Virus record (IMG/VR): IMGVR_UViG_3300038566_000114
Location: 1 to 24,238 of that record
DNA length: 24,238 nt
Origin: a virus
Direction: 5' to 3' (one strand)
Part shown: piece after piece, positions 2,945-19,292 of the stretch
How the letters are laid out: every line of letters starts with the position of its first letter
How positions within the stretch are numbered: position 1 is the stretch's first letter
Program-made: the position numbers and the translations under genes
Notes under the pieces: model-generated
Seen by the model: only the letters and a program-made list of their open reading frames with translations
Told to the model about the DNA's origin: nothing
Database searches by the model: none

Positions 2945-3457
2945 TCAGGCATTCTTGATCTCCGTATCAGGGGTCTCTACTTTGACACTGCTGGCAATAA
3001 GGTCTTTAGCCCGCTCCTGCCCATAGTTGAAAGAGTCCATTTTCTCCTTAGCCAGCTTCTCCTTGGGCACATCGCCAGGGCGACGGAAGAAGAGACCAGC
3101 ACCAAACAGAGCAGCAGTGATCGCACCGCTGGCGGGGTTCAGCCCATAGGACGCAATAGCCTCCGGTGAGGTCAACTGTGAGAACACACCGACCCACTGG
3201 GCAGCCTTGTCCTCAGCCTCCTGGATGTTTGCAGCCCATGACTCCATAAACGCATTTTCTTGTCGTACATATGCGTTGTACTGTCGGATGCTCTGGTCCA
3301 ACTTGAGGTTTGATTCGATACCACGGGCCTCTGCACCCTTGGGAGGAGGGGCATCAATGATCTGACCCAGACATCCTGGGAGAACGGTGCCCACCATGAA
3401 GAGGGCAAAGATGGCAAGCCAGCCCTTAAGACTGACCTTACTGATAAGATTTTCCAT
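2945..3457 (-). CDS. Putative lipoprotein, candidate lysis-associated protein
   Basis: 170 aa. The N-terminus has Lys residues, a hydrophobic stretch (residues about 12-28, GWLAIFALFMVGTVLPG) and cysteine C29 in LPGC, a lipobox-like site although proline at -2 is not typical. A proline-containing linker (DAPPPKG) follows. The middle is helical and charged, and a second hydrophobic stretch lies near 111-124 (GAITAALFGAGLFF). Paired with the following membrane-anchored coiled-coil protein it could be the outer-membrane spanin partner, but it is long for that role and the second hydrophobic segment is unusual. The start at 3457 has AAGAAGGAG upstream. An ATG at 3486 in another frame gives an arginine-rich shadow frame and was discarded. 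Confidence 0.5.
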   Translation of the reverse strand: MENLISKVSLKGWLAIFALFMVGTVLPGCLGQIIDAPPPKGAEARGIESNLKLDQSIRQYNAYVRQENAFMESWAANIQEAEDKAAQWVGVFSQLTSPEAIASYGLNPASGAITAALFGAGLFFRRPGDVPKEKLAKEKMDSFNYGQERAKDLIASSVKVETPDTEIKNA

Positions 3458-3778: not shown

Positions 3779-4164
3779 TACAATACCTTACAGTGGAATG
3801 TGATCACCAGATAGTCAGTATTTGCACCAACACTATCCAGTGAGATTTCAAATGTGTCTCCAGCGGCAAACTGGTTCTCAGCAAGACCGACTGTTCCTGT
3901 CGTCTTTGTCACCTGACTGTCCACGGTTGCCAAGTTCCCATATTCAGATAGGGCCGTAGAGTTCTTCAGGACATCAAACTGGCTTGTGGCACTGCCGCTG
4001 GACACCTTATGGTTGTAGCTTACAGAGACAAGTTCAAACGGGTTCAAGATGTCGTTAGAGAGGGTGTAAACCTCACCAGCGGTGGGAGACCCAATCTCAC
4101 GGGTAAACTCGTATGTGACGATAACATCATCCATCATACTACTATCTACTTTAGTCTGTGACAT
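3778..4164 (-). CDS. Probable tail-fibre-associated structural protein
   Basis: A 128-aa protein rich in Thr, Ser, Val and Asp with alternating hydrophobic residues, so probably a beta-sandwich. The C-terminal half (FDVLKNSTAL, then FAAGDTFEISLDSVGANTDY) resembles small beta-rich proteins seen next to phage fibres and capsids. Its ATG overlaps the tail-fibre stop in a TAATG (4162-4166), so the two are probably made in a fixed ratio. A role as a fibre tip, adhesin or chaperone is inferred from position. No catalytic motif is visible. Confidence 0.6.
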   Translation of the reverse strand: MSQTKVDSSMMDDVIVTYEFTREIGSPTAGEVYTLSNDILNPFELVSVSYNHKVSSGSATSQFDVLKNSTALSEYGNLATVDSQVTKTTGTVGLAENQFAAGDTFEISLDSVGANTDYLVITFHCKVL

Positions 4165-5549
4165 TACAAATACTCCTGATAGGTAACACCGTTGATGGTA
4201 GCCCCGGCGCTTTTGGTGATAGTATAACCACCACCTGCTGGCACAAGGAAAGGCATGAGGTGTGTGCTTGTACCCGGTGCCCCAGGTCGGATGTTGCCAA
4301 CAGTGACAGAGCCTCCAGTAGGTGTGTTGACCGCAACAGAGGCGGTTTGTGAGTATGAATTCATGCCAATCTCAGCATAGTACATTCTTGCCTTGCTCCC
4401 TGAGTTTGTCCCGGTAGTAGAGTTTCCAGCACTTGTGACGCCGCCAACATTTACAGAACCAACAGCAGCTGAGATAGCGGCGTCCATCTGTGACTTGTTC
4501 ACAGCATCCGAAGAGGATGATCCAGCAGTAAGATTGGTGATCTTGTTGCTGTTCATACTCACATTTGCGGTAGGAACAGCAAAATCACTCAGTTTGTACG
4601 CCTTGACCACAGTAGAAAGATCGGAGATGTCAGAGGCTACAGCCACCCGTAGTGCGTAGGCACCAGCAGCATCAATAACAAGGAATCTCTTTGCAACCCC
4701 AGTCCCGAAGTTGATAGCATCCAGGCTTAGGGTATCATCTGCAATAGCAGACCCATCTACAATCTCAGCATTCAGGATAGAACGCACAACACCAGAGATG
4801 GTGAAGCAGTAGATAGGGACAGCATCGGGGGGTGCCGTGGTGAATGTGACAATGGGGTTAGCCGTATCGCCAGCAGACACTGCAAAGTCTGTGCCCGGCT
4901 TCTGGATAATACCGCCTACAAAGGTGATAATCTCCTCATCGTCTACGAAACCAACACCGGCCCCAGTCAGGGTAAAGGCAGTCTCTACACCGTCTCCAGT
5001 GAACCCAAAGAACCCAACATTGTCAATGGTGGATGTCTCTGCACCCTCTACAGCAGAAAGGAGCTGGCGTAGGTTCACCGCATCTGTGCTTGCTATGCCG
5101 TCTGCCAGATTGCAGATACGCTTATCCTGGGCATCAAAGCAATCATTCACAAGGTCCAGTGTGACGCTGTTCTGGCTCTGGGCCAACTCTTCTTGGATAA
5201 GGAATAGAAGCTGCTTGTTGTTCGCATCTAGATCATCAGAGTCCAGAGCGTTGTTATTCTCAAAGTCTACATACGCCCCGTCATTCTTGGTTGTCCTCTC
5301 AATGACAAGGACATCCCCTACAGCAAGGGCCGCTGCGGTGTCCCCTACAAGCGTGATCTCTTCCGCACCCTCATCTACAGTAAAGTCTGTAGTAAGAGTA
5401 AGGGTGGTTGTGTTGAGAACAATAGTAAGTTGCTCTGCATGGGTAATGTTGAGTGCTGCGATGAGGTCGATAGACCCATACGCAAATGTGGGAGTAGCTA
5501 CGGTGCCACTCGTCAATACATATCGTAGATAAGTCGTTGGTAGAGCCAT
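4164..5549 (-). CDS. Tail fibre protein (T7 gp17-like N-terminus)
   Basis: 461 aa. The first 130 or so residues match the T7 gp17 attachment domain in layout: an early beta region (TIVLNTTTLTLTTDF), then VLVIERTTKNDGAYVDFENN and ALDSDDLDANNKQLLFLIQE, equivalent to the VDF...YDLN...E segment of gp17, which docks the fibre to the tail. The rest is Ser/Thr/Gly-rich, with a likely helical coiled-coil stretch around SKQMDAAISAAVGS-like sequence and a beta-rich, Gly-rich C-terminus that probably contacts the host receptor. It is shorter than T7 gp17 (553 aa). AGGAGG precedes the ATG. A strong stem-loop lies upstream (5578-5605). Confidence 0.87.
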   Translation of the reverse strand: MALPTTYLRYVLTSGTVATPTFAYGSIDLIAALNITHAEQLTIVLNTTTLTLTTDFTVDEGAEEITLVGDTAAALAVGDVLVIERTTKNDGAYVDFENNNALDSDDLDANNKQLLFLIQEELAQSQNSVTLDLVNDCFDAQDKRICNLADGIASTDAVNLRQLLSAVEGAETSTIDNVGFFGFTGDGVETAFTLTGAGVGFVDDEEIITFVGGIIQKPGTDFAVSAGDTANPIVTFTTAPPDAVPIYCFTISGVVRSILNAEIVDGSAIADDTLSLDAINFGTGVAKRFLVIDAAGAYALRVAVASDISDLSTVVKAYKLSDFAVPTANVSMNSNKITNLTAGSSSSDAVNKSQMDAAISAAVGSVNVGGVTSAGNSTTGTNSGSKARMYYAEIGMNSYSQTASVAVNTPTGGSVTVGNIRPGAPGTSTHLMPFLVPAGGGYTITKSAGATINGVTYQEYL

Positions 5550-5569: not shown

Positions 5570-5605
5570 CTTAAATACTTACCCCAGAGTTTCCCCTAGG
5601 GTAAG
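5570..5605 (-). terminator. 12-bp GAAA-tetraloop stem-loop before the tail fibre
   Basis: In the minus-strand transcript CTTACCCTAGGG pairs with CTCTGGGGTAAG around loop GAAA: 12 pairs, two of them G-U. The wobble pairs would be A-C mismatches on the other strand, so the structure fits minus-strand RNA. The following TATTTAA is a poor U-run, so partial termination, RNA processing or protection of the tail-fibre message are all possible. It sits between the gp16-like gene and the tail fibre. Confidence 0.6.
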
Positions 5606-5640
5606 GCTGTGTGTTTATTTCTCGGATAAGAAGTAGCGAA

Positions 5641-8600
5641 CTACTTCTCCGAAGGGAATCCTTCAGTAACTCTTTCAGCACCACGAACCCACCACAGGTT
5701 TGTGACAGGCATGATACGCTTGAGATTCCTGATCTGGGACTCTGTAGGGCGTTCCCCATTTGCCAGAGCCTTCCCAATACCATATGCGGTTGAGAAGGTT
5801 CTGTCTAGGAATCCTAGAGCAGGGGCATCCAAGGTTGACTGAGCACCACCATAACCGGCGGCACCAAGCTGGAGAAGACCTGCCACTGGGTTGAACGAAC
5901 CCCAGAGTGGGGCACGAGCCAGTATGATAGCAATGTTCTTCTCGGGCTCCTCTGTCCACTTTTCCATAGCCTCGTCAATAGTGAGACCGTTGTATACCGT
6001 GTCCCGGTACATCTGGTTCAATATTTCTGAGGCAAGCCATGTTGCAAAGAACGCAGCCTGCTTGTGGTACGCCATAGACCCCACACGGGACATTGTAGCG
6101 GCTTGGAAAGCCATAGCCCACGAGGTAAAGGTAGTGAGCAGGTTGATCCAAGGGCTGTCACCAAATGCTCCTGAACTGGATGCCTTGGTAAGTGCAGAGG
6201 GTGTAGCAATGAGATTCTGAGAATCATGCCACGCCATTCTACGCAGTCTCTTGTCAAGTTCCTGGGCAAGAACCCTGTCTTGTCCGTCTAACTGTAAGAT
6301 CAAAGACCTCATGCGGTCAGGATGTGATAGAGCCTTACGATCTTTGGCGTTGATCTCCTTGGCAATACGGAGCATATCAGGGTCAAACAACCCATAGTGC
6401 TTCATACGCCTGAATCTGTCAATAGGAATGCCGATCTCTCGTGCAATCCGCTTGGCTTCCTTGATATCAGGGATGACACGCTGCACATCCATAGCGGCAA
6501 TCTTATCAAACTTTCTACGCACAGCCCATAGGTCACTATAGGTTGCATTGTAGTTCATGTGCTTTAGAGCACCAGTGCCGGGTCTCTCCAAAGAGACAAG
6601 TCGTGTGACATCAACAAGAAGCTGAGAACCCTTCACCCAGTTAGAGTTCTGATGCTCTTTACTCAGGTTAGCACCGGGGTGTGCAAACAGTCGGCTGGGG
6701 TACTGCTCAATAGCACCTTCAAACCCAAGACTCTTCGCATGGCCGGAGGATATGAAGTGCTTGAGGAAGTCACCCGTGTTCTGCACAAGGTTGACATAGG
6801 TAGCCGTTCTGGAGATAACACGGGGGGCTGTCATTACTCCGCCCTCTGAGGCAAGAATAGTTGGGCCAATGCCAGCAAGAGCCGCAGCGGATGTAGCACT
6901 GCCTAGTGTATAGGCAGCCCTCTGTCCCTCTGCCCTTTGCTTCATCCTGTGGGCATTGCTGAGGTCTGTAGTCTCGAAGATTTTTACAAGATCTTGTGCC
7001 TCTTTGTTCCCAGCAGCCATGTTCCTAAGTGCTTCAGTAAGCTCTCTCCAGGTGATCGTCTGCCCTGCGGCTTCCGAGATAGCAGACCCACGGTGTACAT
7101 TATACCCTGTGGACATCCTGTAACGGTGGATGATGCTGGTTGGGTCCAGTTCAATAGCACCTGTCTTCAGCACATCCTCAGACAGCAGCACCGCCTGCTC
7201 AATCTTCCTTGCCTTGTTGGACTGGACATAGTTGTTGACCTGCCGAGCCGCTGATGTATCCCCTCGGAATGGGGTATGGTAAGGGCTGTCAGCCATATTC
7301 GCATCAGGGTCGTGGCTGTAGTTCTTGGCCTGCTTACGCCAGATAGCAATCTCTGCCTCAGTCTTCAGAGACTCATCGAGAGCATTCAGATAGTCCTGAC
7401 GGTACTTCTCGTTGATCTCAGAGACCTTGTTAGGAATCAACATCTCACCAGTCACATCATCTACACGGGTAGAAAAGTCAGGTGGGACTTCCTTGGAGAA
7501 GATATGCCTAGGGGCTTCTGGGTCTTTGAGCAGATACCCAAGACGAGCCAGTGTATTGTTGTGTACATCGGCTGTCAGGATGTCAGCAGGCTTGTAGGCC
7601 CCACGAAGGTCCCTGTAGTATGATCCCACCATAGCAGACTCCATCTCTTCTGTGATGTTATCTGCGAGGTAAGTGGGGAAATAGTTGTCTTGGTAGTTCT
7701 CGATAACCCGATATTGGACACCCTGACGGCCCATATCATCAAAGTAGTCCCGCATCATACCGGAGACAACCTTGGTTTCTGGGCGAGCATCCTCTAGACC
7801 AGCAGCAGCACGGGCGTTGTTGATGAGGAGTTCACGCCCCACATCATCAGACCTGTCCTTAAGCATGGCCTCCTGCTGCCTCTGGAGGGGATCTACGATG
7901 CTAATCTCATCAGCCATTACCCTCTCAGCAGTGCTAAATGTCACCGTACCGTCGGGGTGTAGTAGTTTCTCATGTTCAGCAAGTGGTCCGTTGTCAATAA
8001 CACCAAATAGGCGGGCAATGACACGCTGAACCTTATCCTCGGAGGCCATAGCACGCTTGACCTTTATAGCCGGGGCCAAAGTGCCGGTAAGCTTACCTAG
8101 TTTGGAGTTCAGAATCCAGTTGTAGAGCCCATGACTGGGTGATGCTTCTACAACACCCTCATCACTAAACAACTCCTGAACCTTGGCTACACGGGCCTTG
8201 TGGGTAGGCTGTGAGGCAATGGGGATATCCTCTGCCTTTCTACGCATAGCATCCACAAAGCCCTCAACCTTGACAGCATTGCCTGTATCATCCAGACGGA
8301 ACTGCTTTACAAGGTCATCGTGGTTCAGTTCAGCCTCTCGCAAAGCCCGTCGAGCCTTGGAGATTGCCTTCTGATCCCCAGACTGTATAACCTTCTTCAG
8401 AGCCTCTGTAAGTTCCCATACCTTCTTCTTAGCCAAGGACATCTTGGTAGGGGGAATCTCACCAGAGTCCATTGCTCTTTGCAGAGGAGATATCGTGTCA
8501 CCATCAGCGACCTTTGTAAAGGACATAAGCTCATCATGCGTAGGTAGGCCTTCACGGATATACCTTGCAACGGTCTGAGCAGTCTTGGAGTCCTCGATCT

Positions 8601-9909
8601 TAACACCACCTTCAGCAAACAGGTCCCCAAGTTCTTGGAGTTCTCTACGCTGCTGGGGATGGTACATAACAGCAGTATACTGGTCAAGGGTGTCCAGAGA
8701 CTTCATATGCTCTACATCAATAGGCAGATCATACGACAGTGGCTGTGCTCTACGCCTACGGCCAATCACCTCTGTCTGTAGATTAATGACACCCGTGTTC
8801 TCCATGATGCTTCTGTTTGTGAAGGGCAGGGAGTTGTTGATAGCACGGACACCAAGTTCAGACATTGCAAGACCAAGGACACCACCAATACCGGCTTGAA
8901 GCCAAGGCACATCGAGGTCTTCCCCAGGGGCTTTAGCTGCGATACTAAAGTCATAGGACTGCTGTGCGTATCCCATAGCGGCACCGTAGGCACCGCCTGT
9001 GGCTGTGAATCCACCTTGCAGGATAGCACGGGATGTCAGACTACGGCCTTGTTCAGCAGCCGTTCTTGCGGCAACCTGTGTAGGACCTTCTGCAATAAAC
9101 TGAGCAATACTGGCCGTGTAGTCCCTACCTGTGATCTTCGCCATAGCAGCAGCCCGTTGCTCCACTGTACCTGTAGCAGCCATGCGGACAAGGCTCTTCT
9201 TGAGGCGATTCTTAGCAACAGCAGTAGCCCCTACAGAAAGTAGGAGCATGGGGTCTGTACCAATCTGTATGGCGACCGCTGACACTGCGGCCATCTTGCT
9301 ACGGATAGGCATCTGCTCTTTAGCGACCTGCAGCCACTGACGGCCCTGAATAACCTCTGACAACTTAGGCCAAGCGTTTGCAAAGTCCTCTGCTGAACTG
9401 ATCTGGATACCGCTGAGGGCTTCAGGGCTAAAGCCATTCTGTAGCAGCACACGCTGGAACAGGGGGTCAAAGGTATTCCACAGGTCTTTGATAGGAACCG
9501 TGCTGGCCTTACGCTGGGCAAAGCCGTTCTCCAGGTCTTCGGGAAGTTCGAGATACCAACCATCCTCATACTGAACTGTGAACGGGCCGGGCATGGAGAT
9601 ACCATCTTGGGAGCTATCAGCCACAAAGCCAAACAGGTAATCAGCACCACCAGACAGCATAATACGACCGAAACCCGAAAGCTCCTCTGTAGCGCGAGCA
9701 CCCTGGATGAGCCTTGCCGCAAGAGCCTTAGCAAAAGTGTCGTCTAAACCTAGAAAGGACTTAGAATCTGGCCGCAGCAGGGTAGGCTTACCGGAGTAGG
9801 TGAGGAATACCCGCTCAAAGGGGTCCGGGAAAGCGGCATTACGGATATCCGAAGCCAACGGAGCGTCAAACGGGTTGGGCACCGCTGGGCCGAATGGTAG
9901 TGCTGTCAT
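5641..9909 (-). CDS. Internal virion protein D (T7 gp16-like)
   Basis: A 1422-aa internal core protein, comparable to T7 gp16 (1318 aa), which is ejected at infection and helps DNA cross the cell envelope. Long helical charged regions alternate with hydrophobic patches, for example near residues 205-235 and in the C-terminal third (YTLGSATSAAALAGIG, WINLLTTFTSWAMAFQ). The C-terminus ends with a tail near RIMPVTNLWWVRG, similar to the closing motif of gp16-type proteins. No lytic transglycosylase motif (ES near GLMQ) is visible, unlike T7 gp16. AAGGAAAG precedes the ATG and the gp15-like gene stops 9 nt upstream. Confidence 0.88.
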   Translation of the reverse strand: MTALPFGPAVPNPFDAPLASDIRNAAFPDPFERVFLTYSGKPTLLRPDSKSFLGLDDTFAKALAARLIQGARATEELSGFGRIMLSGGADYLFGFVADSSQDGISMPGPFTVQYEDGWYLELPEDLENGFAQRKASTVPIKDLWNTFDPLFQRVLLQNGFSPEALSGIQISSAEDFANAWPKLSEVIQGRQWLQVAKEQMPIRSKMAAVSAVAIQIGTDPMLLLSVGATAVAKNRLKKSLVRMAATGTVEQRAAAMAKITGRDYTASIAQFIAEGPTQVAARTAAEQGRSLTSRAILQGGFTATGGAYGAAMGYAQQSYDFSIAAKAPGEDLDVPWLQAGIGGVLGLAMSELGVRAINNSLPFTNRSIMENTGVINLQTEVIGRRRRAQPLSYDLPIDVEHMKSLDTLDQYTAVMYHPQQRRELQELGDLFAEGGVKIEDSKTAQTVARYIREGLPTHDELMSFTKVADGDTISPLQRAMDSGEIPPTKMSLAKKKVWELTEALKKVIQSGDQKAISKARRALREAELNHDDLVKQFRLDDTGNAVKVEGFVDAMRRKAEDIPIASQPTHKARVAKVQELFSDEGVVEASPSHGLYNWILNSKLGKLTGTLAPAIKVKRAMASEDKVQRVIARLFGVIDNGPLAEHEKLLHPDGTVTFSTAERVMADEISIVDPLQRQQEAMLKDRSDDVGRELLINNARAAAGLEDARPETKVVSGMMRDYFDDMGRQGVQYRVIENYQDNYFPTYLADNITEEMESAMVGSYYRDLRGAYKPADILTADVHNNTLARLGYLLKDPEAPRHIFSKEVPPDFSTRVDDVTGEMLIPNKVSEINEKYRQDYLNALDESLKTEAEIAIWRKQAKNYSHDPDANMADSPYHTPFRGDTSAARQVNNYVQSNKARKIEQAVLLSEDVLKTGAIELDPTSIIHRYRMSTGYNVHRGSAISEAAGQTITWRELTEALRNMAAGNKEAQDLVKIFETTDLSNAHRMKQRAEGQRAAYTLGSATSAAALAGIGPTILASEGGVMTAPRVISRTATYVNLVQNTGDFLKHFISSGHAKSLGFEGAIEQYPSRLFAHPGANLSKEHQNSNWVKGSQLLVDVTRLVSLERPGTGALKHMNYNATYSDLWAVRRKFDKIAAMDVQRVIPDIKEAKRIAREIGIPIDRFRRMKHYGLFDPDMLRIAKEINAKDRKALSHPDRMRSLILQLDGQDRVLAQELDKRLRRMAWHDSQNLIATPSALTKASSSGAFGDSPWINLLTTFTSWAMAFQAATMSRVGSMAYHKQAAFFATWLASEILNQMYRDTVYNGLTIDEAMEKWTEEPEKNIAIILARAPLWGSFNPVAGLLQLGAAGYGGAQSTLDAPALGFLDRTFSTAYGIGKALANGERPTESQIRNLKRIMPVTNLWWVRGAERVTEGFPSEK

Positions 9910-9918
9910 TATCTTTCC

Positions 9919-12402
9919 TTATTTCGTACTAGCAGAGATGTCTGAGCGTCCGGGTATACTGATCGTGAAGACCATGACCGCACCTTTATTCTTCTGTCCC
10001 TGTGGGTTGAGGTATCGAGGTCCACGGCTCTGGAAGAACCCATTGTTAAAGTTTACAATACCAATCTCAAGGTTCTGCCCCTCTACTTGGAGCATAACAG
10101 GGACAGATGTATTGGAGGCAAGACTTGGCTTCACCACAATCTTAACCTTACCATCCTCTGCAAGCTGTTGAAGTCTCTTGGTCTCTTCTTGGATACTGGC
10201 TCCAGAGTCTCTTCCAAGTTGGAGACGCAGTTGTTGTGCTGCGTGCTCCCAGATGTTGTTGGTCTCTCCACCAGACATGGTGTTGGCAAGGTATCTTTGT
10301 AGAGGCACCTCATTACTAGGGTCACTTAGAGCCTCTGATACATCTGTAGATCTCCAGCCAATAGCTTCTGGGATAGCCTGTGAGGGGGTAATAGCAAAGA
10401 AGTCTCTACCTCCAGGTGTGTCTGCCGGTTCCCAGATAGCATAGAGACCTACTTGGTCTAGATGCTCCTTGATCTTCTCAGCAAGAACCTTGGGGTTAGT
10501 CGCTGATCCAGGGATGGATTCTAGAGGCACAAGGTTGAGCAGTCTGTTCGCAGCCTTCTCATCCAATGCATAGTTCTTATGCTTGCTCCAAACACCAGCA
10601 CCCATGAAGGCACGAGCAAAGTCGTGGGACTTCACAGCCTCATGTACAGTGGCATCTTCGTTGTTACCAACCTTGAATCGTGCCTGCTGATACTGGGCAA
10701 GGTTCCTATTGTAGTTCTCCAGTGTGGGGTCCTGACTCAGCAGGGTCTCCTTGAGGGCATACCGCTGTGCAGGACTTCCTACTTGCTGGGAAAGGAGTTC
10801 ATCTATACGGTCCCCACCCAACTCTTCAACAGCAGCCCTGACAATCAGGAAACCATCTTCCGAGGAGAAGTAGTTTTGATTGGATAGGAATGAGTTTAGG
10901 AATCCACGCTCATGCCGAGTGCCTGCAATACGGTCTGCGATGATAGCAGCACGCAAAGGCAGGTTTGTTGAAGCATCTGCCAGCAATGAGTTATATTGCT
11001 CTGGGCCTGTGACAGTCATACCACCAATGTCTCTTGATGCTCCTTCTGGGAACAAGTCAGAGGCTAGGGTAGTGTTCGCCATAGACGCCGCTGATGCTGT
11101 CACCCAGTCGTCTAGCGTAGCGTCCATGAGTGAGTTGAAGTCACCATCGGAAGCCGACACAGGGTTGAGCATATTTCGCACAGCCTGAGTCTGGAACTTT
11201 GTAAGAGACGGTGCATCAGGAGTCTGCATAAGTTTCTTGGATGCTGACACCACTGCATTCTTGAACGCACCGTTAGGTCCTGACTCTGGGAGTTGGGAGA
11301 TATCAGCAATAGTGAATGCTTCTTGACCGTAGGCTTCTGATAGGGCGGATCTCGCCATAGAATCTACAGCCTGATTCGCAGCCTCTACACCAAACTCAAC
11401 AACAGTGGAGGACCACTTTCTACCAAAGTTGTCACTCACAGCAGCCCCGTATGCCTCGTTACCAGCGGCAACAGCAGCGGAGAGTTTGTTCCTTACGGAG
11501 GGGCCTGTTACATGCTGAAGTGCCTCCCATGCGGATGCTGTACCATGCAGTATACCATCGGTATCACCAAGGTTGCTGGCTGTCTGGATATCGTTGAGAA
11601 TGGCATCAGCAAGGAACTGCGATGCCCTGTCCATATCCACATCAGCAACCTTCATCTTATCCTCAAACTGTTGCCATGAGATGTCACGACGGGAGAACCC
11701 GTTGACGGCACTCTTGGCAATGTCTGTGTTGGTCTTGATACGCTGCTGCTCTAGGTTACTCTCAAACTTCTGCTGGAACTGATTGTTGATGCCTATGACA
11801 GTTCGGGCAATGTTTTCTCTAGCTGCATCTGTAAGTACATCGGCAGCCCTCTCAGGCATGTTATCAATAACAACATCCTCAATAGCCGCCTGCCTATCGG
11901 AGTAGTCAGGGATTCTAAGGATCTGTTTTCTTGTGTCTTCATCCGCAAGAGCCTCCATAACAGCAGGCATAACCTTCAGGTCTACGAAAGCATCAGCAGC
12001 GGCCTCAAACTTACGCTCTGCTTTCTGGGCAAAGGCTGTTCGTGTGCTTTCGCCCATAGAGGCCACCTCAGACTCAAACCGTGTGCCAGCAAACTTCTTA
12101 GCAGCGGCATCGTAGGCGTAGAGGAAAGCACTCTCCTTGTTGGGGTCTCTCTGGGCTTCCTGCTGGAGCCTGATCAGGTTCGCAGACGATGCTTCATAAG
12201 CACTCTGCAACTCCTCATCTGACTTACGCTTGTCCTGCTCTTGAATAGCACCGATGGTCCCAACAGCCTGCTGTACAAGACCAAGGAGATTCCCAGCCGT
12301 GTTATCCGCTACAGGAGTAAAACTACCTGGGCTTACATTCCCAACCCCCGTAGGGATACCGGGTGAACTAGACAATCCTACTTGGGGTCGTATTCTACTC
12401 AT
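9919..12402 (-). CDS. Internal virion protein C (T7 gp15-like)
   Basis: An 827-aa mostly helical protein with a Pro/Gly/Ser-rich first 35 residues, then long Ala/Glu/Gln/Arg helices. T7 gp15 has 747 aa and forms the middle of the internal core and the periplasmic part of the ejection channel. Assignment is by size, composition and position between the gp14- and gp16-like genes. Translation start is 10 nt after the gp14-like stop; Shine-Dalgarno is weak (AAGAG), so coupling to the upstream gene is likely. No enzyme motif is visible. Confidence 0.85.
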   Translation of the reverse strand: MSRIRPQVGLSSSPGIPTGVGNVSPGSFTPVADNTAGNLLGLVQQAVGTIGAIQEQDKRKSDEELQSAYEASSANLIRLQQEAQRDPNKESAFLYAYDAAAKKFAGTRFESEVASMGESTRTAFAQKAERKFEAAADAFVDLKVMPAVMEALADEDTRKQILRIPDYSDRQAAIEDVVIDNMPERAADVLTDAARENIARTVIGINNQFQQKFESNLEQQRIKTNTDIAKSAVNGFSRRDISWQQFEDKMKVADVDMDRASQFLADAILNDIQTASNLGDTDGILHGTASAWEALQHVTGPSVRNKLSAAVAAGNEAYGAAVSDNFGRKWSSTVVEFGVEAANQAVDSMARSALSEAYGQEAFTIADISQLPESGPNGAFKNAVVSASKKLMQTPDAPSLTKFQTQAVRNMLNPVSASDGDFNSLMDATLDDWVTASAASMANTTLASDLFPEGASRDIGGMTVTGPEQYNSLLADASTNLPLRAAIIADRIAGTRHERGFLNSFLSNQNYFSSEDGFLIVRAAVEELGGDRIDELLSQQVGSPAQRYALKETLLSQDPTLENYNRNLAQYQQARFKVGNNEDATVHEAVKSHDFARAFMGAGVWSKHKNYALDEKAANRLLNLVPLESIPGSATNPKVLAEKIKEHLDQVGLYAIWEPADTPGGRDFFAITPSQAIPEAIGWRSTDVSEALSDPSNEVPLQRYLANTMSGGETNNIWEHAAQQLRLQLGRDSGASIQEETKRLQQLAEDGKVKIVVKPSLASNTSVPVMLQVEGQNLEIGIVNFNNGFFQSRGPRYLNPQGQKNKGAVMVFTISIPGRSDISASTK

Positions 12403-12411
12403 ATTATGCTC

Positions 12412-12915
12412 TTAGGTAACTGGTATCTTGAATGATGGGATAGAGAAGCCCGGACCTTGGATAGCTGCCGTAGATGTGGTTGCGGGTGCTGCTGCTGACC
12501 CTAACCCTCCTAGGCTGCTTCCGAGCATATAGCCCTGTAGACCGCCCTGTATGCTAGCAAATAGAGGACTCTGGTAGGCGGCATCTGCTCGCTGTTGTGC
12601 TTGCAGGTTGGAAAGTCGTAGGTTTGTGTTAACAGCACCCTGCTGGGCAATACCAGCGTAGCCTGCTGACTGTTGGGCAGCCAGAGCAGAGGCACTGCCA
12701 GCAACGCCACGAGCAGCAGAGGTAGCCCGAAGGCTTCCCTCTAACTGGGCGAAGTCTCTAGCCAGAGATTCCTTCTGCCTGTTTGCTGCTACTGTGTTGG
12801 CTGCCTTCTGCTGTGCTGCGGCTCTCTGGGCTGCTTGATTATTCTCAGACGCTTGTATGCCTGATAGGGCAGCCCCACCAACAGTAAGGCCAATAGTAAG
12901 GGGGTCGAATCCCAT
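12412..12915 (-). CDS. Internal virion protein B (T7 gp14-like)
   Basis: 167 aa (T7 gp14: 196 aa). It begins MGFDPLTIGLTVGGAALSGI, a hydrophobic N-terminal segment, then an Ala/Gln-rich helical region (NNQAAQRAAAQQKAANTVAA) and a Gly/Ala-rich C-terminal third, as expected for the core protein that inserts into the outer membrane during ejection. The start at 12915 is chosen over an upstream in-frame ATG at 13092 because AAGGAGG is correctly placed and because the longer frame would run 176 nt into the tail tubular B gene. The two genes are separated by a single base. Confidence 0.85.
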   Translation of the reverse strand: MGFDPLTIGLTVGGAALSGIQASENNQAAQRAAAQQKAANTVAANRQKESLARDFAQLEGSLRATSAARGVAGSASALAAQQSAGYAGIAQQGAVNTNLRLSNLQAQQRADAAYQSPLFASIQGGLQGYMLGSSLGGLGSAAAPATTSTAAIQGPGFSIPSFKIPVT

Positions 12916-12916
12916 A

Positions 12917-15397
12917 TCAGCCTCCTTGTGCTGTAGGTTGGTAGGCCCCTGCCTGTAGATCCCCAACAAACTCCATGTTGGTGATCTCTGACTGGAAGGG
13001 GGTATCGTTGAATAGTCGAATCTCCGTGTCGGCACCTCGCCCACGGATATGCACACGCTTGCGTGCAGATGCCTGAAGACCTGTAGCCCCAAGGATCATA
13101 GAACCAATACGGTTGGCAAGGTATCGTGTCGTCTTTGCGGGTCTACCCGGTGGAGTCACAATGACATCCAGAGTCGTAGTATTCCGCATGTAGATTTCCA
13201 TATAGAGCAACTGTAGGGCACCAAAGATGGTTTGCCCCTGCTGGTCCTTGGGATAAATCTTGGATAGGGTGCAGTCCATGTTGTAGGACTTGCCTACAAA
13301 GCAGGGGTGGGCAGAGAAGTTACCGTTGATCGTCAGGGTTGTTACACCCCCTGATGATCCAGTAGTCGCTGCTACCTTGATACCCTTCTGATTCCCCCAC
13401 CCAGCACCAAGAACAACAGTGTCCATATCGGCATCCAGGAATGGGAGAGTAAAGGTGGTCTGCTTTGTGGATGAACTGTAGACACCCGTGAGGCTCTGTT
13501 TACGATCTATGAGGAGTCGGTAACTTAGAGACCCGTTGGCATCACTCTCGTTATTAGGGGTAGCCAGAGGCATAGACTCCAACCAAGTATCCGTACCGTC
13601 TGTAAACATGATGTACAGCAGGTCTGATACAGTCTTGTAGCCAAGGATGGTGAATGAGTTATCAAACACCCACCTACACCAAGCATTCTGAATCTTCTGG
13701 TTGATGTTCCAGTGTGAGAATAGGCAGTAGATGGTATTAGGTTCATCACGAGAACTACACAACACAATGTTGTTGTTCTCACTGGCAGCAAACCTGTCTA
13801 GGTTGTCGGGGATGTAACGCTCCACATGCTTTGTAGAGTTTACACCGATGTTTGCATCAGCATCATAGTTGTAGAAATACTCCCACACATAGGAGAAGCT
13901 ACCCTGATTACTGGAGAAGTACAACTGCTGGCCTATCCGTGTTGGGTATGCCTGAGAGTCAGATTTGTAGTTGGATGTGGCAATGAGGTTCGTGTCTTTA
14001 GGGGTAAAGGCATTCTGAGACTTAACCTCAAACTGTTGTCCACCGTCTGCGAACACAACCATCGTCTTATCGAAAGGAACCATGAACTGCACATCGTGGA
14101 TATCCTCTGCTGCCAAAGGTAGGTCAATAGGATCTGAGTCCACAACATTCGTCCAGTCATCCACCCACAGGTTGAACAAGTCACCTGCTTGGGAGGCAAA
14201 GACATACGGGCCTGCCCCAAACCACATCCTATCCTGGAAGATAGAGATGTCCTGAATGGGGTTGCCGATGAACTCTGGGCCTGGGTTTGTAATATCATCC
14301 CCAGACATGCGATCATTCCACTTAATCACATCTAGTGAGAAGGTATCTGCATCCTCATCGTAGATAATACGAATAGGGAATGATCCGGCCTCTACCTCGT
14401 TACCGTCCTCTGGAGGAGGCACACGGGTATACCAAGGACCTGACTCATCAGGGCTCGTGTGGAGAGCAGCAATGATCTTGTAGAAGCCTACAGGATAGCC
14501 GTTCTGAGCCGACACAAGGTTGATATAATCATCTACATCCCACTGGCTGTTTGTGTATGTTCCACCGTCATTGGGGAACCGCATGACAGCCTGTGCGGAG
14601 ACATTGCTGTAGGATGGGGCTACGCCACCGAGATGGGTGGGGGCGGTCTTATTGACAATGAAGGTAGTATCACCGAATGTCAGCAGTCGATACTTTGTAC
14701 GGGCATCACCACTACCGTACCGTAGGTACGCTATGGTCTTGGGGATAGCCGTGGTAAGACTGTGTGCTACGCCTGCTACAGACCCAGCGGACAGTGTGAT
14801 CTCTGTGCCAGCCAAGGCATTGGCCTCACTACTGGCAAGCTGGACACGGTTGGCTGTCGTAGACTTGATGACATAGTATACCGTAGTGTCCACAAGACCT
14901 GTGGGGGCTGTGCCACCGCCGTCTGAATAAGTAACAGCATCCCCTGTCTCTATGTAGTCATAGAAGTAGGGGGTGACTGCAATCTCATCTGAGGCAACAA
15001 TGAGTACACTACTGTCGGTAAGGTCTAGACTTGTAGCGTCCAGTACTGGCGTGGATTCAATACTCACTGTCTTCTTTGCCCCAGATGAATCAAATATCTG
15101 GAGTCTGTCTGCCTGCACGGTCTGCTGATCGTCAAGCATGACAAAGAACCTGTCACTGTTGCTACGATCTATCCCGTGAAAGAACCACTTAGTAGAGGCA
15201 TCACCAGAAAGATCAAGGTATCCAGTGTCGGTGTCTGGAGAGTTGATGTAAGTAGTACCAAACCTTTTCTCAAGACCTCGCTGTAGAAACATGTTAACAT
15301 TGTCTGCATCCTCCAACTGGTTAGGGTCTCTGAAAGGTTCTGGTTGTCTGGATACACCCCCGGTCAGCGGGGACGCAGGGATTCTCCATTGTGGCAT
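12917..15397 (-). CDS. Tail tubular protein B (T7 gp12-like, nozzle)
   Basis: 826 aa, against 794 in T7 gp12, the hexameric nozzle of the short tail. The N-terminus (MPQWRIPASPLTGGVSRQP) is typical: these proteins open with a segment about lack of bias to Q-P and contain LEDADNVNMFLQRGLEKRFG, matching the conserved gp12 N-terminal pattern. Later signatures include DISIFQDRMWFGAGPYVFAS, a beta-propeller-like strand typical of the family. The ATG at 15397 overlaps the methyltransferase stop as TAATG with GGAG upstream; a GTG 12 nt earlier is possible but less likely. In T7-like phages this gene normally follows tail tubular A directly; here a methyltransferase lies between them. Confidence 0.93.
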   Translation of the reverse strand: MPQWRIPASPLTGGVSRQPEPFRDPNQLEDADNVNMFLQRGLEKRFGTTYINSPDTDTGYLDLSGDASTKWFFHGIDRSNSDRFFVMLDDQQTVQADRLQIFDSSGAKKTVSIESTPVLDATSLDLTDSSVLIVASDEIAVTPYFYDYIETGDAVTYSDGGGTAPTGLVDTTVYYVIKSTTANRVQLASSEANALAGTEITLSAGSVAGVAHSLTTAIPKTIAYLRYGSGDARTKYRLLTFGDTTFIVNKTAPTHLGGVAPSYSNVSAQAVMRFPNDGGTYTNSQWDVDDYINLVSAQNGYPVGFYKIIAALHTSPDESGPWYTRVPPPEDGNEVEAGSFPIRIIYDEDADTFSLDVIKWNDRMSGDDITNPGPEFIGNPIQDISIFQDRMWFGAGPYVFASQAGDLFNLWVDDWTNVVDSDPIDLPLAAEDIHDVQFMVPFDKTMVVFADGGQQFEVKSQNAFTPKDTNLIATSNYKSDSQAYPTRIGQQLYFSSNQGSFSYVWEYFYNYDADANIGVNSTKHVERYIPDNLDRFAASENNNIVLCSSRDEPNTIYCLFSHWNINQKIQNAWCRWVFDNSFTILGYKTVSDLLYIMFTDGTDTWLESMPLATPNNESDANGSLSYRLLIDRKQSLTGVYSSSTKQTTFTLPFLDADMDTVVLGAGWGNQKGIKVAATTGSSGGVTTLTINGNFSAHPCFVGKSYNMDCTLSKIYPKDQQGQTIFGALQLLYMEIYMRNTTTLDVIVTPPGRPAKTTRYLANRIGSMILGATGLQASARKRVHIRGRGADTEIRLFNDTPFQSEITNMEFVGDLQAGAYQPTAQGG

Positions 15398-15963
15398 TAT
15401 GTGCTCCACTGTTCGGCCATTGCCTTTGCAATGCCGGTGTATGTTTTACTTCTAAGCTTCCACCGATCTTTGGATGGGGGAAGTTTATGCAATCTTTGTT
15501 CTCTTCCTGAAACAATGTCTGTTGGGAATAGCTTTGGAAGACCTTTTAGCCAAAAGCATGTTGCTTTCGTTTCTCCGTGTCCAAACATCCAAGGTTGAAC
15601 AACTTGATCTTGTCTTCGGCCAATAATCTCAACAGCATACTTGTGCATGATTGGATTCTCAACACAGATACGATCGCAAGGAAGATCGAGCATACGCTTA
15701 AAAAACAACGCTGCTTCTTCCATCTTCTGCCTGCGGCCTTCTTGTTCTTTCAGCCACCGGACCCCAGAGTTGCACAAATATGTGCATGGGGGATGACAGA
15801 TCAACAAATCAAATCCAGTCCAGTCCTGCTCAAAGCAATCGCCTTGGATATGAGGACCGTCGATGTCACTGGGAAGTAGGTCACAGGACACAGCTTCATG
15901 TCCTTTCCTAATAAAAGCATTCCTTACAACACCACTATACTCACACAGTACTCCTACTTTCAT
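15397..15963 (-). CDS. C5-cytosine methyltransferase-like protein inserted in the tail cassette
   Basis: 188 aa. Motif I-like VLCEYSGVVRNAF with acidic CDLL (residues 5-30) suggests SAM binding; HPPC at 57-60 resembles the PC motif IV of C5-cytosine methyltransferases with C60 as the catalytic candidate; CVENP at 100-104 resembles the ENV motif VI; the C-terminal YTGIAKAMAEQW resembles motif X. The protein is much shorter than a typical C5 enzyme (over 300 aa), leaving little room for a target-recognition domain. It could protect phage DNA against restriction. GGACAGGAG precedes the ATG. The sequence appears more AT-rich than its neighbours, which suits acquisition by transfer, although composition was judged by eye. 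An N4 or N6 specificity cannot be excluded. Confidence 0.7.
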   Translation of the reverse strand: MKVGVLCEYSGVVRNAFIRKGHEAVSCDLLPSDIDGPHIQGDCFEQDWTGFDLLICHPPCTYLCNSGVRWLKEQEGRRQKMEEAALFFKRMLDLPCDRICVENPIMHKYAVEIIGRRQDQVVQPWMFGHGETKATCFWLKGLPKLFPTDIVSGREQRLHKLPPSKDRWKLRSKTYTGIAKAMAEQWST

Positions 15964-15981
15964 CTACTCCTGTCCTTCCCT

Positions 15982-15996
15982 AGCATCTAGGATGCT
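15982..15996 (-). other. Short stem-loop between tail tubular A and the methyltransferase
   Basis: AGCATC and GATGCT form a 6-bp stem with a 3-nt loop directly at the tail tubular A stop codon. No U-run follows. It may mark the junction where the methyltransferase gene was inserted, or reduce read-through; weak evidence. Confidence 0.3.
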
Positions 15997-16601
15997 TATC
16001 GTGGTCCTCTGAAGCCAACACGGTTTCTCTGGGTTCCCCAGCCTGTGTTGCCATTGAAGTTCTGGTTATAGTTTGCGTTACGGCTTCTGGCATCGTAAGC
16101 CTTAGCCCGTGCCTGGGCCCTCTGTAGACGCTCTGCTAAGAAGGCATCCATCTCCCGGCTACGTTGTGTCTGCATCTGATAGTTGCGGGCAGCGGAGGCC
16201 ATGATCCATTCCTGGATAGCGGTGGGGATGTCTTCAAAGTCAAGTTTGTAGGTGATCTTGAGTTCCACATACTCATCGTCTGGGAATGTGAATCTGTTGT
16301 TGTAGTTATCGTAGAGGAACTTACCCCTCTGTACATAATCACAGTGCAGGTTCCCGTTCCAAGGAACAAGATCAAGGATATTATCTGACAAAGAGATTTT
16401 ATTGTTCGCATCCTTGTAGAGTTTCTTGACTTCTGTGTTGAAGCTGAGGCCCCTGCTCTGTATTTTCAATATCTCTTTGTCAAGGACTGATTCGGCTAGG
16501 GAGACATCGTTTGTGCCATCAGACACCAGCGTTGCTACTGGCTGTTCTCCCGATGCCTCTAGCATCTCATTTACGGCATCTAGTCTCGTGTATGCTGGCA
16601 T
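15996..16601 (-). CDS. Tail tubular protein A (T7 gp11-like, gatekeeper)
   Basis: 201 aa (T7 gp11: 196 aa). It forms the dodecameric ring between portal and nozzle. The N-terminus MPAYTRLDAVNEMLEASGEQPV is characteristic of the family (TxLDAVNxML), followed by SLAESVLDKEILKIQSRG and a C-terminal helix rich in Arg and Gln (LAERLQRAQARAKAYDARS). The start at 16601 has GGGAG at proper spacing; an upstream in-frame ATG at 16634 lies in a terminator stem and has no ribosome-binding site. Two tandem stem-loops precede the gene. Confidence 0.93.
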   Translation of the reverse strand: MPAYTRLDAVNEMLEASGEQPVATLVSDGTNDVSLAESVLDKEILKIQSRGLSFNTEVKKLYKDANNKISLSDNILDLVPWNGNLHCDYVQRGKFLYDNYNNRFTFPDDEYVELKITYKLDFEDIPTAIQEWIMASAARNYQMQTQRSREMDAFLAERLQRAQARAKAYDARSRNANYNQNFNGNTGWGTQRNRVGFRGPR

Positions 16602-16620
16602 AGTAACTCCCGTTATAGGT

Positions 16621-16650
16621 AAAACGCAGAACACGACTTTCGCCGTGTTC
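16621..16650 (-). terminator. GAAA-tetraloop stem-loop before tail tubular A (second of two)
   Basis: In minus-strand RNA GAACACGGC pairs with GTCGTGTTC around GAAA, 9 pairs including one G-U, followed by TGCGTTTTA. It looks like an intrinsic terminator with a short U-run and stands 16 nt downstream of a second, similar stem-loop. T7 has its only class III terminator just after the capsid gene, a comparable place. Confidence 0.7.
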
Positions 16651-16656
16651 CACGCT

Positions 16657-16688
16657 GGAAAACACGAGGCAGGGCTTACGCCCTACCC
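16657..16688 (-). terminator. GTAA-tetraloop stem-loop downstream of the capsid-associated gene (first of two)
   Basis: In minus-strand RNA GGGTAGGGC pairs with GCCCTGCCT around GTAA (a GNRA loop), 9 pairs with two G-U, followed by CGTGTTTTCC. This is the first stem-loop met by transcripts that have copied the capsid genes, and is a plausible intrinsic terminator giving more capsid than tail message. Confidence 0.7.
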
Positions 16689-16759
16689 CATGCTGAGGAA
16701 AGGAGGACAAAGGACCGCACAAGGTTTCCCAAGTACGGCCCCGAAAGGAGTAGTAGGGT

Positions 16760-17164
16760 TTACGAACTGGAGAGTCGCTGCAAGTTTACACTCACGGCTG
16801 CTGCTGTAGAGGCAGCACCCCAGCGGTTGTTAATGGTGAGAACACCACTGTTGTTGTAGAAAGCAACCTTAGCGTTGGTAGGGGTTGCAGCAAGGCCAGC
16901 ACCAGCGTCCTGTACAATGGTCACAGTGCCTCCATCATCCAGACGGAAAACACCAAAGGTGGTGTTGTCGCCTGTGGTCAGGACAATACTGTAGAGACCG
17001 GCGTAGTCAGCACGCAGTGTGTCAACAATGGTTTCTGTAGGTGCAGCGTTATTACCAGCAGCCACATCGAACTTGTACGGTCGGCCTGGGGCTTCGCGGA
17101 ACAGGGGATGGGGACCCATTGTGGGTGCGGGCCGCGTAGCAGCGGCAGGAATACTTGAAGTCAT
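16760..17164 (-). CDS. Candidate capsid decoration or minor capsid protein
   Basis: 134 aa, directly after the major capsid protein and before the tandem stem-loops, so in the high-expression capsid unit. The first 30 residues are Ala/Pro/Arg-rich (IPAAATRPAPTMGPHPLFRE). The rest reads as beta strands: YSIVLTTGDNTTFGVFRLDD, TVTIVQDAG, AKVAFYNNSGVLTINN. This layout fits a small decoration or head-fibre protein. GGAGATAG lies about 11 nt before the ATG, a slightly long spacing. No family is recognised with certainty. Confidence 0.6.
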   Translation of the reverse strand: MTSSIPAAATRPAPTMGPHPLFREAPGRPYKFDVAAGNNAAPTETIVDTLRADYAGLYSIVLTTGDNTTFGVFRLDDGGTVTIVQDAGAGLAATPTNAKVAFYNNSGVLTINNRWGAASTAAAVSVNLQRLSSS

Positions 17165-17185
17165 TTTAATCTATCTCCTGTGTTA

Positions 17186-18325
17186 TTACGACTGAACAAG
17201 TTCAACGGCAGCCACGGGATCAAGAGTACCCGAGCCTGTCCACGACATAGCATAGGCAGTCTCTTCCATCTTGAGGGGCGGACGCTCGATATTAATACCA
17301 GTACGCATCACATCTGCCCAGCCACACGCTTCACTCTGGAAGACGAGACCAACGGTAGGCGTGAAGACACCGGGACGATCGGGATCTCCCGAACGGTCTG
17401 CACGGAATGCTGAGATTTCAGGGGAGAAGGCGGCATCGAAGAAGTTGTGAGCAAAGATGGTAAAGCCCATGTAGCTCAGAGGGGTCATATCACCGAACAT
17501 CTGGGTGAAGGGCATACTGGTGCCTACAATGTCGTTGTTGCCGTAGATACCGCCAGCAATCTTCTGGGTCTGGGTGGGGTACACGGTCTCAAGCTCACGG
17601 AAGTCGTAGAACAACTCAGTGGGGATGATACAGTAGCGGTTACGGGCACCGACATTACGCTTCTGCCAACCAATCGAGATGGTCTTGAGGGCCTTAGCGA
17701 GTGCCAGAGCGTTTGCCTGACCAGCCGTGTAGGAGGTGATGGTTGACGCGTTAAAGCCGAAGTCAGCGGTATAACCAGCGTTTGTACCTGAAGCATTGGC
17801 TACAAGAGCCTCGCCACCAGCGAACATGAAGTTGCCACCACGCAGGAACTCTACGGTGTCTTCAGAACCCACAGCCGCAGTACGGGCTGTCAGGGCAATC
17901 TGCTTCATAACCTCTACCTCATCGCGTGCAGCGAGGGCAAAGGCCATGTTGTCGAAAGTTCCCATACGGAAGTCAATCTGCTCAAAGCGGCGAGTGATGT
18001 GCTCATCGTTGATAGCAGTGACATTGGGGCGGTCATCAATACTGATACGCCGTGAGATGCTGTTGCGTTCCGTGCCGGTGATGGTATCACCCTTCAGGAA
18101 CTTCTCAGAGCCAACCTTACCAGTAACCAGGAAGTCCACATCCTTGTTGAAGTGGCCACCGGACTGGTACATGGGGGTAGCATTACGGATAAGTCGGGGG
18201 AGGAAGGTTGCGTTCTTGCGGGCCGTCTGGATCTCACCAGCCCACACATCCTTGTGATGGTCAAACTCCGTGGGAGTTGACTGCGAAGCATTGGCTTGGG
18301 GAAGCCAAATGTTTGTAGTACTCAT
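17186..18325 (-). CDS. Major capsid protein (T7 gp10-like)
   Basis: 379 aa; T7 gp10A has 345. HK97-type fold shell protein of the icosahedral head. The N-terminal region (FDHHKDVWAGEIQTARKNATFLPRLIRN), the E-loop region with SEKFLKGDTITGTERNSISR, and the axial part with RNRYCIIPTELFYDFRELE fit podovirus capsid proteins. Position after scaffold and portal supports the call. A purine-rich AAGGAAATAAATAA leader stretch precedes the ATG. It has a long, structured untranslated leader, suggesting separate control from the scaffold gene. Confidence 0.93.
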   Translation of the reverse strand: MSTTNIWLPQANASQSTPTEFDHHKDVWAGEIQTARKNATFLPRLIRNATPMYQSGGHFNKDVDFLVTGKVGSEKFLKGDTITGTERNSISRRISIDDRPNVTAINDEHITRRFEQIDFRMGTFDNMAFALAARDEVEVMKQIALTARTAAVGSEDTVEFLRGGNFMFAGGEALVANASGTNAGYTADFGFNASTITSYTAGQANALALAKALKTISIGWQKRNVGARNRYCIIPTELFYDFRELETVYPTQTQKIAGGIYGNNDIVGTSMPFTQMFGDMTPLSYMGFTIFAHNFFDAAFSPEISAFRADRSGDPDRPGVFTPTVGLVFQSEACGWADVMRTGINIERPPLKMEETAYAMSWTGSGTLDPVAAVELVQS

Positions 18326-18480
18326 TTATTTATTTCCTTAGTTTTAGTAAATCTCCTTGCCGTAAGTATCAGATAGTTCCTCGATAGTCCGTAGTAGGGT
18401 CTCAGAGTCATCAACTAAGAATACACACTATTGGGTCTGGGGACGCACCATGCGTGCCATAACGGAATGTGTGTAGGCAA
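18326..18480 (-). promoter_or_regulatory. Structured leader of the major capsid gene
   Basis: About 155 nt without a gene lie between the stem-loop at 18490-18515 and the capsid start. TACACAC (18422-18428) pairs with GTGTGTA (18469-18475), and between them ACGCA/TGCGT (18443-18455) forms a hairpin with a 3-nt loop. No clear sigma-70 promoter is visible. A phage-polymerase promoter, a processing site or a translation-control leader is possible. Confidence 0.4.
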
Positions 18481-18515
18481 ATATAAAACCCCTCACTATA
18501 TTTCTATAGCAAGGG
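18481..18515 (-). terminator. GAAA-tetraloop stem-loop between scaffold and capsid genes
   Basis: In minus-strand RNA CCCTTGCTATA pairs with TATAGTGAGGG around GAAA: 11 continuous pairs including a tandem U-G/G-U, followed by GTTTTATAT. It lies 27 nt after the scaffold stop codon. A terminator or a processing site that separates scaffold from capsid message is likely; the stem is AT-rich near the loop, so termination may be partial. Confidence 0.65.
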
Positions 18516-18542
18516 ACGAAAGATAGGAATTTATAATGTTGT

Positions 18543-19292
18543 TTATCGGTTCATAGCAGTAAAGGCAGCCACACGCTTGGAGACTTGTTCTCGGAAACTC
18601 GCGTCTGTCTTGTACCGTTCATCGTTGTACAGTTCAGAGAACTCAGCACTGTTGGGGTCCAGAGGCTTCTCATCGCTCTTCTGGGTGGTTACGGCATCAG
18701 GCAGAGGCTTAGGCTCATCACCATTCCCCTTGTAGTCACTGGCCTTCATCTCCTCCAGTGTGGTCTTCAGGGCATTCTCCCAGAGGCGGGGATGCTCAAG
18801 ATCACTAAGTCGTTCCTGAAGGGCCTGACCCTGATACTTCTCTTGCAGGTAGTTCAGGACATGGTTCTGGGAACCCTCAAACCCTGCTACCTTGTCCCAC
18901 TTGGAGGCACGGTCACGGGCGATGATCTCTCGGGCCTGCTTAATAGTCTGACCAAACTCCGTGGCAATCTCTTTAGGGACAGCCCCACTCTTATCCAGAT
19001 GCTCAATAAGCTCAGGGGTAAACCCCGTCTCTGACTCTGGGTTGAAGAAGTTGCTGGGGTTGGAGAAGTCAAACTGGGGCATGACATTGGGGTTCTCACC
19101 CTCTGGCTTCTGCTGCTGGGCTGCCTTTAGGGCTGCCAGCTCCTGCTGTGCCTGGGTCAGTGCCGCCTTGGTGTTCTTGTACCCGTTAGCAAGCTCTGTT
19201 TCACTCGTAAAGTTCGAGGCAATAGTCTTCCATTCAGGGGTACTCTCCGTAGTAGTCTGCGTAGTATTTTCTGTCTGTTGTTCTTCACTCAT
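18543..19292 (-). CDS. Capsid assembly scaffold protein (T7 gp9-like)
   Basis: 249 aa, acidic and helical; T7 gp9 has 307. The N-terminus is Thr/Gln/Glu-rich and disordered-looking (QQTENTTQTTTEST), a Gln/Ala-rich helix follows (LTQAQQELAALKAAQQQK), and the C-terminus has a charged helix (YKTDASFREQVSKRVAAFTA), the part that contacts capsid protein in scaffolds. It guides procapsid assembly and leaves before DNA packaging. GGAGGATAAG precedes the ATG. It starts 2 nt after the portal stop and ends before a stem-loop, so scaffold and portal share a message. Confidence 0.88.
   Translation of the reverse strand: MSEEQQTENTTQTTTESTPEWKTIASNFTSETELANGYKNTKAALTQAQQELAALKAAQQQKPEGENPNVMPQFDFSNPSNFFNPESETGFTPELIEHLDKSGAVPKEIATEFGQTIKQAREIIARDRASKWDKVAGFEGSQNHVLNYLQEKYQGQALQERLSDLEHPRLWENALKTTLEEMKASDYKGNGDEPKPLPDAVTTQKSDEKPLDPNSAEFSELYNDERYKTDASFREQVSKRVAAFTAMNR

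Follow-up and report, generated by a model that had tools for sequence, protein, structure and literature searches.

In T7, annotation places the terminator Tphi between genes 10 and 11, at the border between capsid and tail tube A. In Pseudomonas phage LUZ100, terminators were mapped by ONT-cappable-seq, a full-length RNA sequencing method (PMC10134795), and they lie between scaffold and capsid (T13-T15), between capsid and tube A (T16), and between internal virion protein D and the tail fibre (T19). The authors of that study describe a strong terminator directly past the capsid gene and report that the termination sites are read through in sequence (PMC10134795). T16 folds as a 12-bp hairpin with a GAAA loop followed by seven U, and T19 combines a UUCG loop with a U-run; the mapped T13-T15 are not simple U-tailed hairpins. 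In vitro, T7 RNA polymerase terminates at terminators of many bacteria with a strength that grows with the number of U, such that two can suffice weakly and five are reliable (PMC8783025).

Here, we analyzed a window that comprises an entire virus contig of 24,238 bases, a 24-kb fragment of a T7-like phage that contains no RNA polymerase gene. Every credible gene is encoded on the minus strand, and the genes follow the order of T7: exonuclease, portal, scaffold, capsid, a 134-amino-acid gene, tail tube A, a methyltransferase-like gene, tail tube B, internal virion proteins, tail fibre, and large terminase. The portal (phrog_449, E 1e-90), tail tube B (phrog_457), and the tail fibre (4164-5549; phrog_2710, E 9e-24) were assigned from family matches, and the large terminase from its T7-type RNase H domain. 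The 249-amino-acid scaffold gene (18543-19292) rests on a match to phrog_1052 (E 3.5e-4) together with synteny with the relative L006, and the 1422-amino-acid internal virion protein (5641-9909) on position, size, and synteny with ivpD of relatives. The 379-amino-acid major capsid protein (17186-18325) is 42% identical to that of L006; it had no PHROG or Pfam match, and tblastn against annotated phages was also empty. The 134-amino-acid gene 3' of the capsid gene (16760-17164) is kept in L006 (30%). For tail tube A (15996-16602), the match to phrog_446 (E 2e-43) was obtained with the open reading frame 15996-16634, and the start at 16602 was set by reading the sequence. The methyltransferase-like gene (15397-15963; phrog_757, E 2e-59) sits between tail tubes A and B and is absent from the same place in L006.

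The L006/L089 population is the closest relative that the searches found, sharing 42-45% identity in tube B and 42% in capsid; the L006 group is a single population with at least 99.96% identity. Tube B of a further relative, L091, is 35% identical to that of the window, and the L091 genome encodes a T7-like RNA polymerase (PF00940, E 7e-112). Annotated phages gave no DNA match to the window, and queries with single proteins (tube B and capsid) returned no direct relatives from viral contigs or from whole-genome collections. A perfect sigma-70 promoter (TTGACA, 17 nt, TATAAT, extended TG) lies on the minus strand at 574-602, after the terminase gene and before a 118-amino-acid cysteine-rich gene, and probably marks where the early region begins and reads out past the contig end. 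A search of the window for a repeated phage-promoter motif found none.

GNRA hairpins at virion gene borders

A sequence-only reading of the window had reported four stem-loops with GAAA or GTAA loops, and folding of both strands bore this out: each stem is the optimal fold of the minus-strand RNA, and the plus strand folds much more poorly at each site. HP1 (18488-18517), at the scaffold/capsid border, has a 13-bp stem by script count and a GAAA loop followed by UUUUAUAUUU (-15.2 kcal/mol, z -3.6). HP2 (16661-16694) and HP3 (16623-16656) both have 15-bp stems; HP2 carries a GTAA loop (GUAA in RNA) and the short U-run GUGUUUUCC (-27.3 kcal/mol, z -6.0), and HP3 a GAAA loop and the short U-run GCGUUUUACC (-22.8 kcal/mol, z -5.0). 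HP4 (5578-5605), at the border between internal virion protein and tail fibre, has a 12-bp stem, a GAAA loop, and the poor U-run UAUUUAAG (-19.8 kcal/mol, z -3.9). The length of 12 bp originally given for HP4 is right, but those of 11, 9, and 9 bp for HP1, HP2, and HP3 were too short. As had been claimed, the stems contain G-U pairs that are valid in minus-strand RNA only: four each in HP1, HP2, and HP3 and two in HP4, 14 in total, all of which become A-C mismatches in the opposite strand.

The set of four was incomplete. HP5 (16711-16742, minus strand) consists of 10 bp, a 2x2 internal loop, 2 bp, and a GAAA loop, with the tail UUUGUCC (-20.9 kcal/mol). It adjoins the HP2/HP3 pair on the upstream side, placing three hairpins in a row at 16623-16742, at the border between the capsid block and tube A. 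All five hairpins have GNRA loops. HP2 and HP3 are identical at 25 of 41 bases and, judged by this similarity, are possibly copies of each other that arose by duplication, in which case the five loops would not be independent. The borders had been named as scaffold, capsid, tail tube, and tail fibre, and they stand as such, except that the gene on the "capsid" side at 16.6 kb is the 134-amino-acid gene after capsid; at the tail fibre border, the preceding gene can now be specified as the 1422-amino-acid internal virion protein.

In a whole-window scan of uninterrupted stems, HP1-HP4 were the top four non-coding minus-strand hairpins. The GNRA scan that the earlier reading had suggested identified four stems of at least 12 bp on the minus strand and none on the plus strand, compared to an expected mean of 0.003 from 300 dinucleotide-preserving shuffles. 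The hairpins occupy three of the longest intergenic gaps of the window. When the window was searched with 4227 Rfam covariance models, there was no match up to E 5. An additional minus-strand hairpin with 9 bp and a UUCG loop (5628-5649) spans the stop codon of the 1422-amino-acid gene, 22 nt upstream of HP4. Separately, we considered and rejected pairing between a CUCCUU stretch after the 134-amino-acid gene and the ribosome site of tube A, which was predicted in the window and L091, but not in L089.

The U-runs had been characterized as fair to poor, and their scores agree. HP1 has a moderate score (3.4), which makes it the most convincing candidate terminator by this measure. The scores of HP2 (1.7), HP3 (2.0), and HP4 (2.2) are low. 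In HP2 and HP3, the U-run counts four U, and two of these are paired within the full stem; the tandem placement of the two hairpins may offset this weakness. HP4 has almost no U-run and is doubtful as a strong terminator; here, the earlier objection to simple termination is a fair one.

We consider it likely that the hairpins are intrinsic, partly read-through terminators of a T7-like late operon, with one site at each of the three virion borders. Graded termination, one of the shared roles originally put forward, fits well with the recurrence of hairpins in relatives and with the presence of Tphi and the LUZ100 terminators at these borders. Most likely, the phage polymerase would undergo partial intrinsic termination at every border. 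As RNA polymerase copies a stem, the hairpin would form behind it; a fraction of polymerases would be released at the U-run and the remainder would read through. The capsid and later blocks would thereby be divided into overlapping transcripts of differing abundance, with the HP5, HP2, and HP3 cluster following the capsid block, where Tphi lies in T7. The GNRA sequence would serve as a fast-folding, stable loop, interchangeable with UUCG or UAAC. We infer termination itself, and with it its efficiency, the polymerase that would be stopped, and the effect on protein amounts. Most likely, these are ordinary but unusually uniform terminators that tune the amount of each virion protein.

The described systems resemble the window to different degrees. 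Like Tphi, HP5, HP2, and HP3 lie on the message strand of a T7-like late operon between the capsid block and tube A. Unlike at Tphi, there are three tandem GNRA hairpins with short U-runs at that border, and further hairpins are found before capsid and before the tail fibre. LUZ100 has its terminators at the same three borders, and T16 shares the GAAA loop and the 12-bp stem; however, the U-runs of T16 and T19 are longer, T13-T15 are not of the simple U-tailed type, and the stem sequences are unrelated. The window hairpins also resemble bacterial intrinsic (Rho-independent) terminators with stable tetraloops, which have a GC-containing stem, a GNRA or UUCG loop, and a U-rich tail, but the U-runs are weaker than is typical of these at HP2, HP3, and above all HP4.

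Hairpins at the same borders in relatives

Hairpins recur at these places in relatives. L089, whose tube B is 42% identical to that of the window, has U-tailed hairpins at all three borders: at 3379-3408 before capsid, at 5094-5125 before tube A, and near 15286 before the tail fibre, where 8 bp, a 2x2 internal loop, and 3 bp surround GAAA and are followed by UUUUUCUUU. In L091, a 13-bp hairpin with a UAAC loop lies at the scaffold/capsid border (7426-7455), and a bulged hairpin with a GAAA loop followed by UUUUCUU lies before tube A; there was no comparable U-tailed hairpin before the tail fibre. Among non-redundant T7-like loci, we searched the 250 nt preceding a gene for a hairpin with a U-run. 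Such a hairpin was present in 30 of 63 loci for tail tube A (Fisher p 1e-10), in 11 of 54 for capsid (p 0.001), and in 4 of 33 for the tail fibre (p 0.04). By comparison, the proportion was 1 of 66 for tube B and 0 of 31 for portal, and 2.8% of random positions had such a hairpin.

What recurs is the arrangement, hairpin plus U-run at the same three borders; the stems of relatives are unrelated in sequence and the loops are mixed (GAAA, UUCG, UAAC). Since the nearest relatives are at least 99.96% alike and the next ones already have unrelated stems, conservation here refers to position and pairing and not to base-by-base compensation. The 30 terminator-like hairpins before tube A have 6 GNRA loops (the window's included), 7 UNCG loops, and 17 others. 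That stem sequence and loop vary while position and pairing are kept fits the needs of a terminator; a sequence-specific loop function would give the reverse.

The same comparison bears on three alternative explanations. GC-rich GNRA hairpins resist exonucleases, and the hairpins could chiefly stabilize the capsid and tail messages from their 3' or 5' ends, with termination incidental. HP4, which is nearly devoid of a U-run, would suit such a role. End protection is, however, compatible with terminators and not separate from them, and it is U-tailed hairpins that recur in relatives; we regard it as very improbable as the chief function, and message protection as a possible by-product.

Processing by RNase III or another nuclease, cutting the polycistronic message at the borders, had also been suggested. 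T7 has RNase III sites, the late R sites, between its late genes, and the weak U-runs of HP2-HP4 would be in keeping with such a role. RNase III sites of the T7 R-site type have an extended duplex that is at least about 20 bp long and typically interrupted by an internal loop. HP1-HP4, by contrast, are uninterrupted tetraloop stems of 12-15 bp, shorter and more regular than the known T7 sites, and an internal loop is present only in HP5, which has 12 bp in total. RNase III is disfavored because the stems are short and regular; moreover, a U-run still follows the stem in relatives, although cutting would not require one, and the LUZ100 features mapped at these borders are terminators. We judge this explanation very improbable.

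A function specific to the GNRA design, in which an RNA receptor, or a protein of the phage or its host, would bind the loops and coordinate the borders, might be read from the five GNRA loops among five window hairpins, compared to 6 of 30 before tube A (window included). It is not supported, because the loops that relatives carry at these borders include UUCG, UAAC, and others; nor would the five count as independent should HP2 and HP3 be copies. We give this explanation very little credence.

A structured RNA upstream of capsid genes in T7-like phages

In 34 of 54 non-redundant T7-like loci, a motif lies 68-131 nt upstream of the capsid gene, with a short C-anchored 4-bp stem, a UGCG or UACG loop, and then A(C/U)AA or similar. 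The RNA structure consists of the 4-bp stem, a 1x4 internal loop with ACAA or AUAA, and outer GA-UC or GG-CC pairs. The alignment (A12) comprises 30 rows, L012 6894-6924, L034 7311-7341, L004 8148-8178, L002 8277-8307, and 26 more; because the pattern used to collect them demanded the 4-bp stem, pairing of the inner helix is circular evidence in these rows. The outer helix formed no part of the selection, and it covaries: columns 8 and 26 form 20 GC and 10 AU pairs and are never unpaired, while columns 7 and 27 are unpaired in 10 of 30 rows.

As an independent test, we scanned viral contigs for TGACCCNNTGCGNNGGACAATCT, a pattern in which pairing is not demanded. The scan identified at least 119 further loci, and the free NN/NN positions are complementary, G-U pairs allowed, in all 119 that were listed. 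In 116 of the 116 listed loci that could be judged (three run off the contig), a capsid gene starts on the same strand 83-141 nt downstream of the motif start. The carriers are many T7-like phages, mostly marine; cultured examples are Roseobacter phage CRP-114, pelagiphage HTVC011P, and Prochlorococcus phage P-SCSP1d, and Rhizobium phage RHEph21 carries the leader by covariance model (E 7e-5). RHEph21 also has an abiF RNA match (RF03085) at L003 7860-7895, near tRNA genes between scaffold and capsid. No Rfam family matched the leader RNA, and the leader model had no match at the capsid-leader place in the T7 stretch searched. A limited literature search found no description of this RNA, which is weak evidence of novelty. 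Our guess is that it controls either translation or processing of the capsid message.

The covariance model did not detect the RNA in the window, where its best hit (E 1.1) lay away from the capsid border. Between HP1 and the capsid start, the window has a non-coding leader block (18365-18480, minus strand) with base-level conservation with L091 and L089; local alignment scores are 60 and 44, compared to shuffle maxima of 42 and 39, respectively. Although missed by the model, this block may, from its sequence (GAGAC-CCUACUACGG-ACUAUC, 18379-18403), represent a diverged capsid-leader RNA. That the scaffold/capsid border holds two RNA devices, the HP1 terminator and then a divergent leader copy, is a tentative and rather unlikely proposal. 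A common stem around AUGGC...CCCCAG in the window, L089, and L091 was rejected: the folding z-score was unsupportive in two of the three, and a pattern scan found no other members. In the L091 genome, TGGATAACTATAGGA recurs, though not before the capsid gene. The same genome (G001) has a repeated TGGATAAC(T/C)ATAGGA at reversed coordinates 958, 29434, and 39692, which is probably a phage RNA-polymerase promoter.

Implications for T7-like phages

If the window does carry both devices at the scaffold/capsid border, capsid output would be set jointly by transcription stops and a dedicated structured leader. Across T7-like phages, the covarying capsid-leader RNA without an Rfam match may outrank the terminators in interest. 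If the hairpins act as we propose, the splitting of virion genes by terminators at fixed borders extends far past T7 and LUZ100 to T7-like phages that are deeply diverged, and the terminator stems are rebuilt each time from unrelated sequence. These borders would then be usable as transcription-unit markers when annotating uncultured phages.
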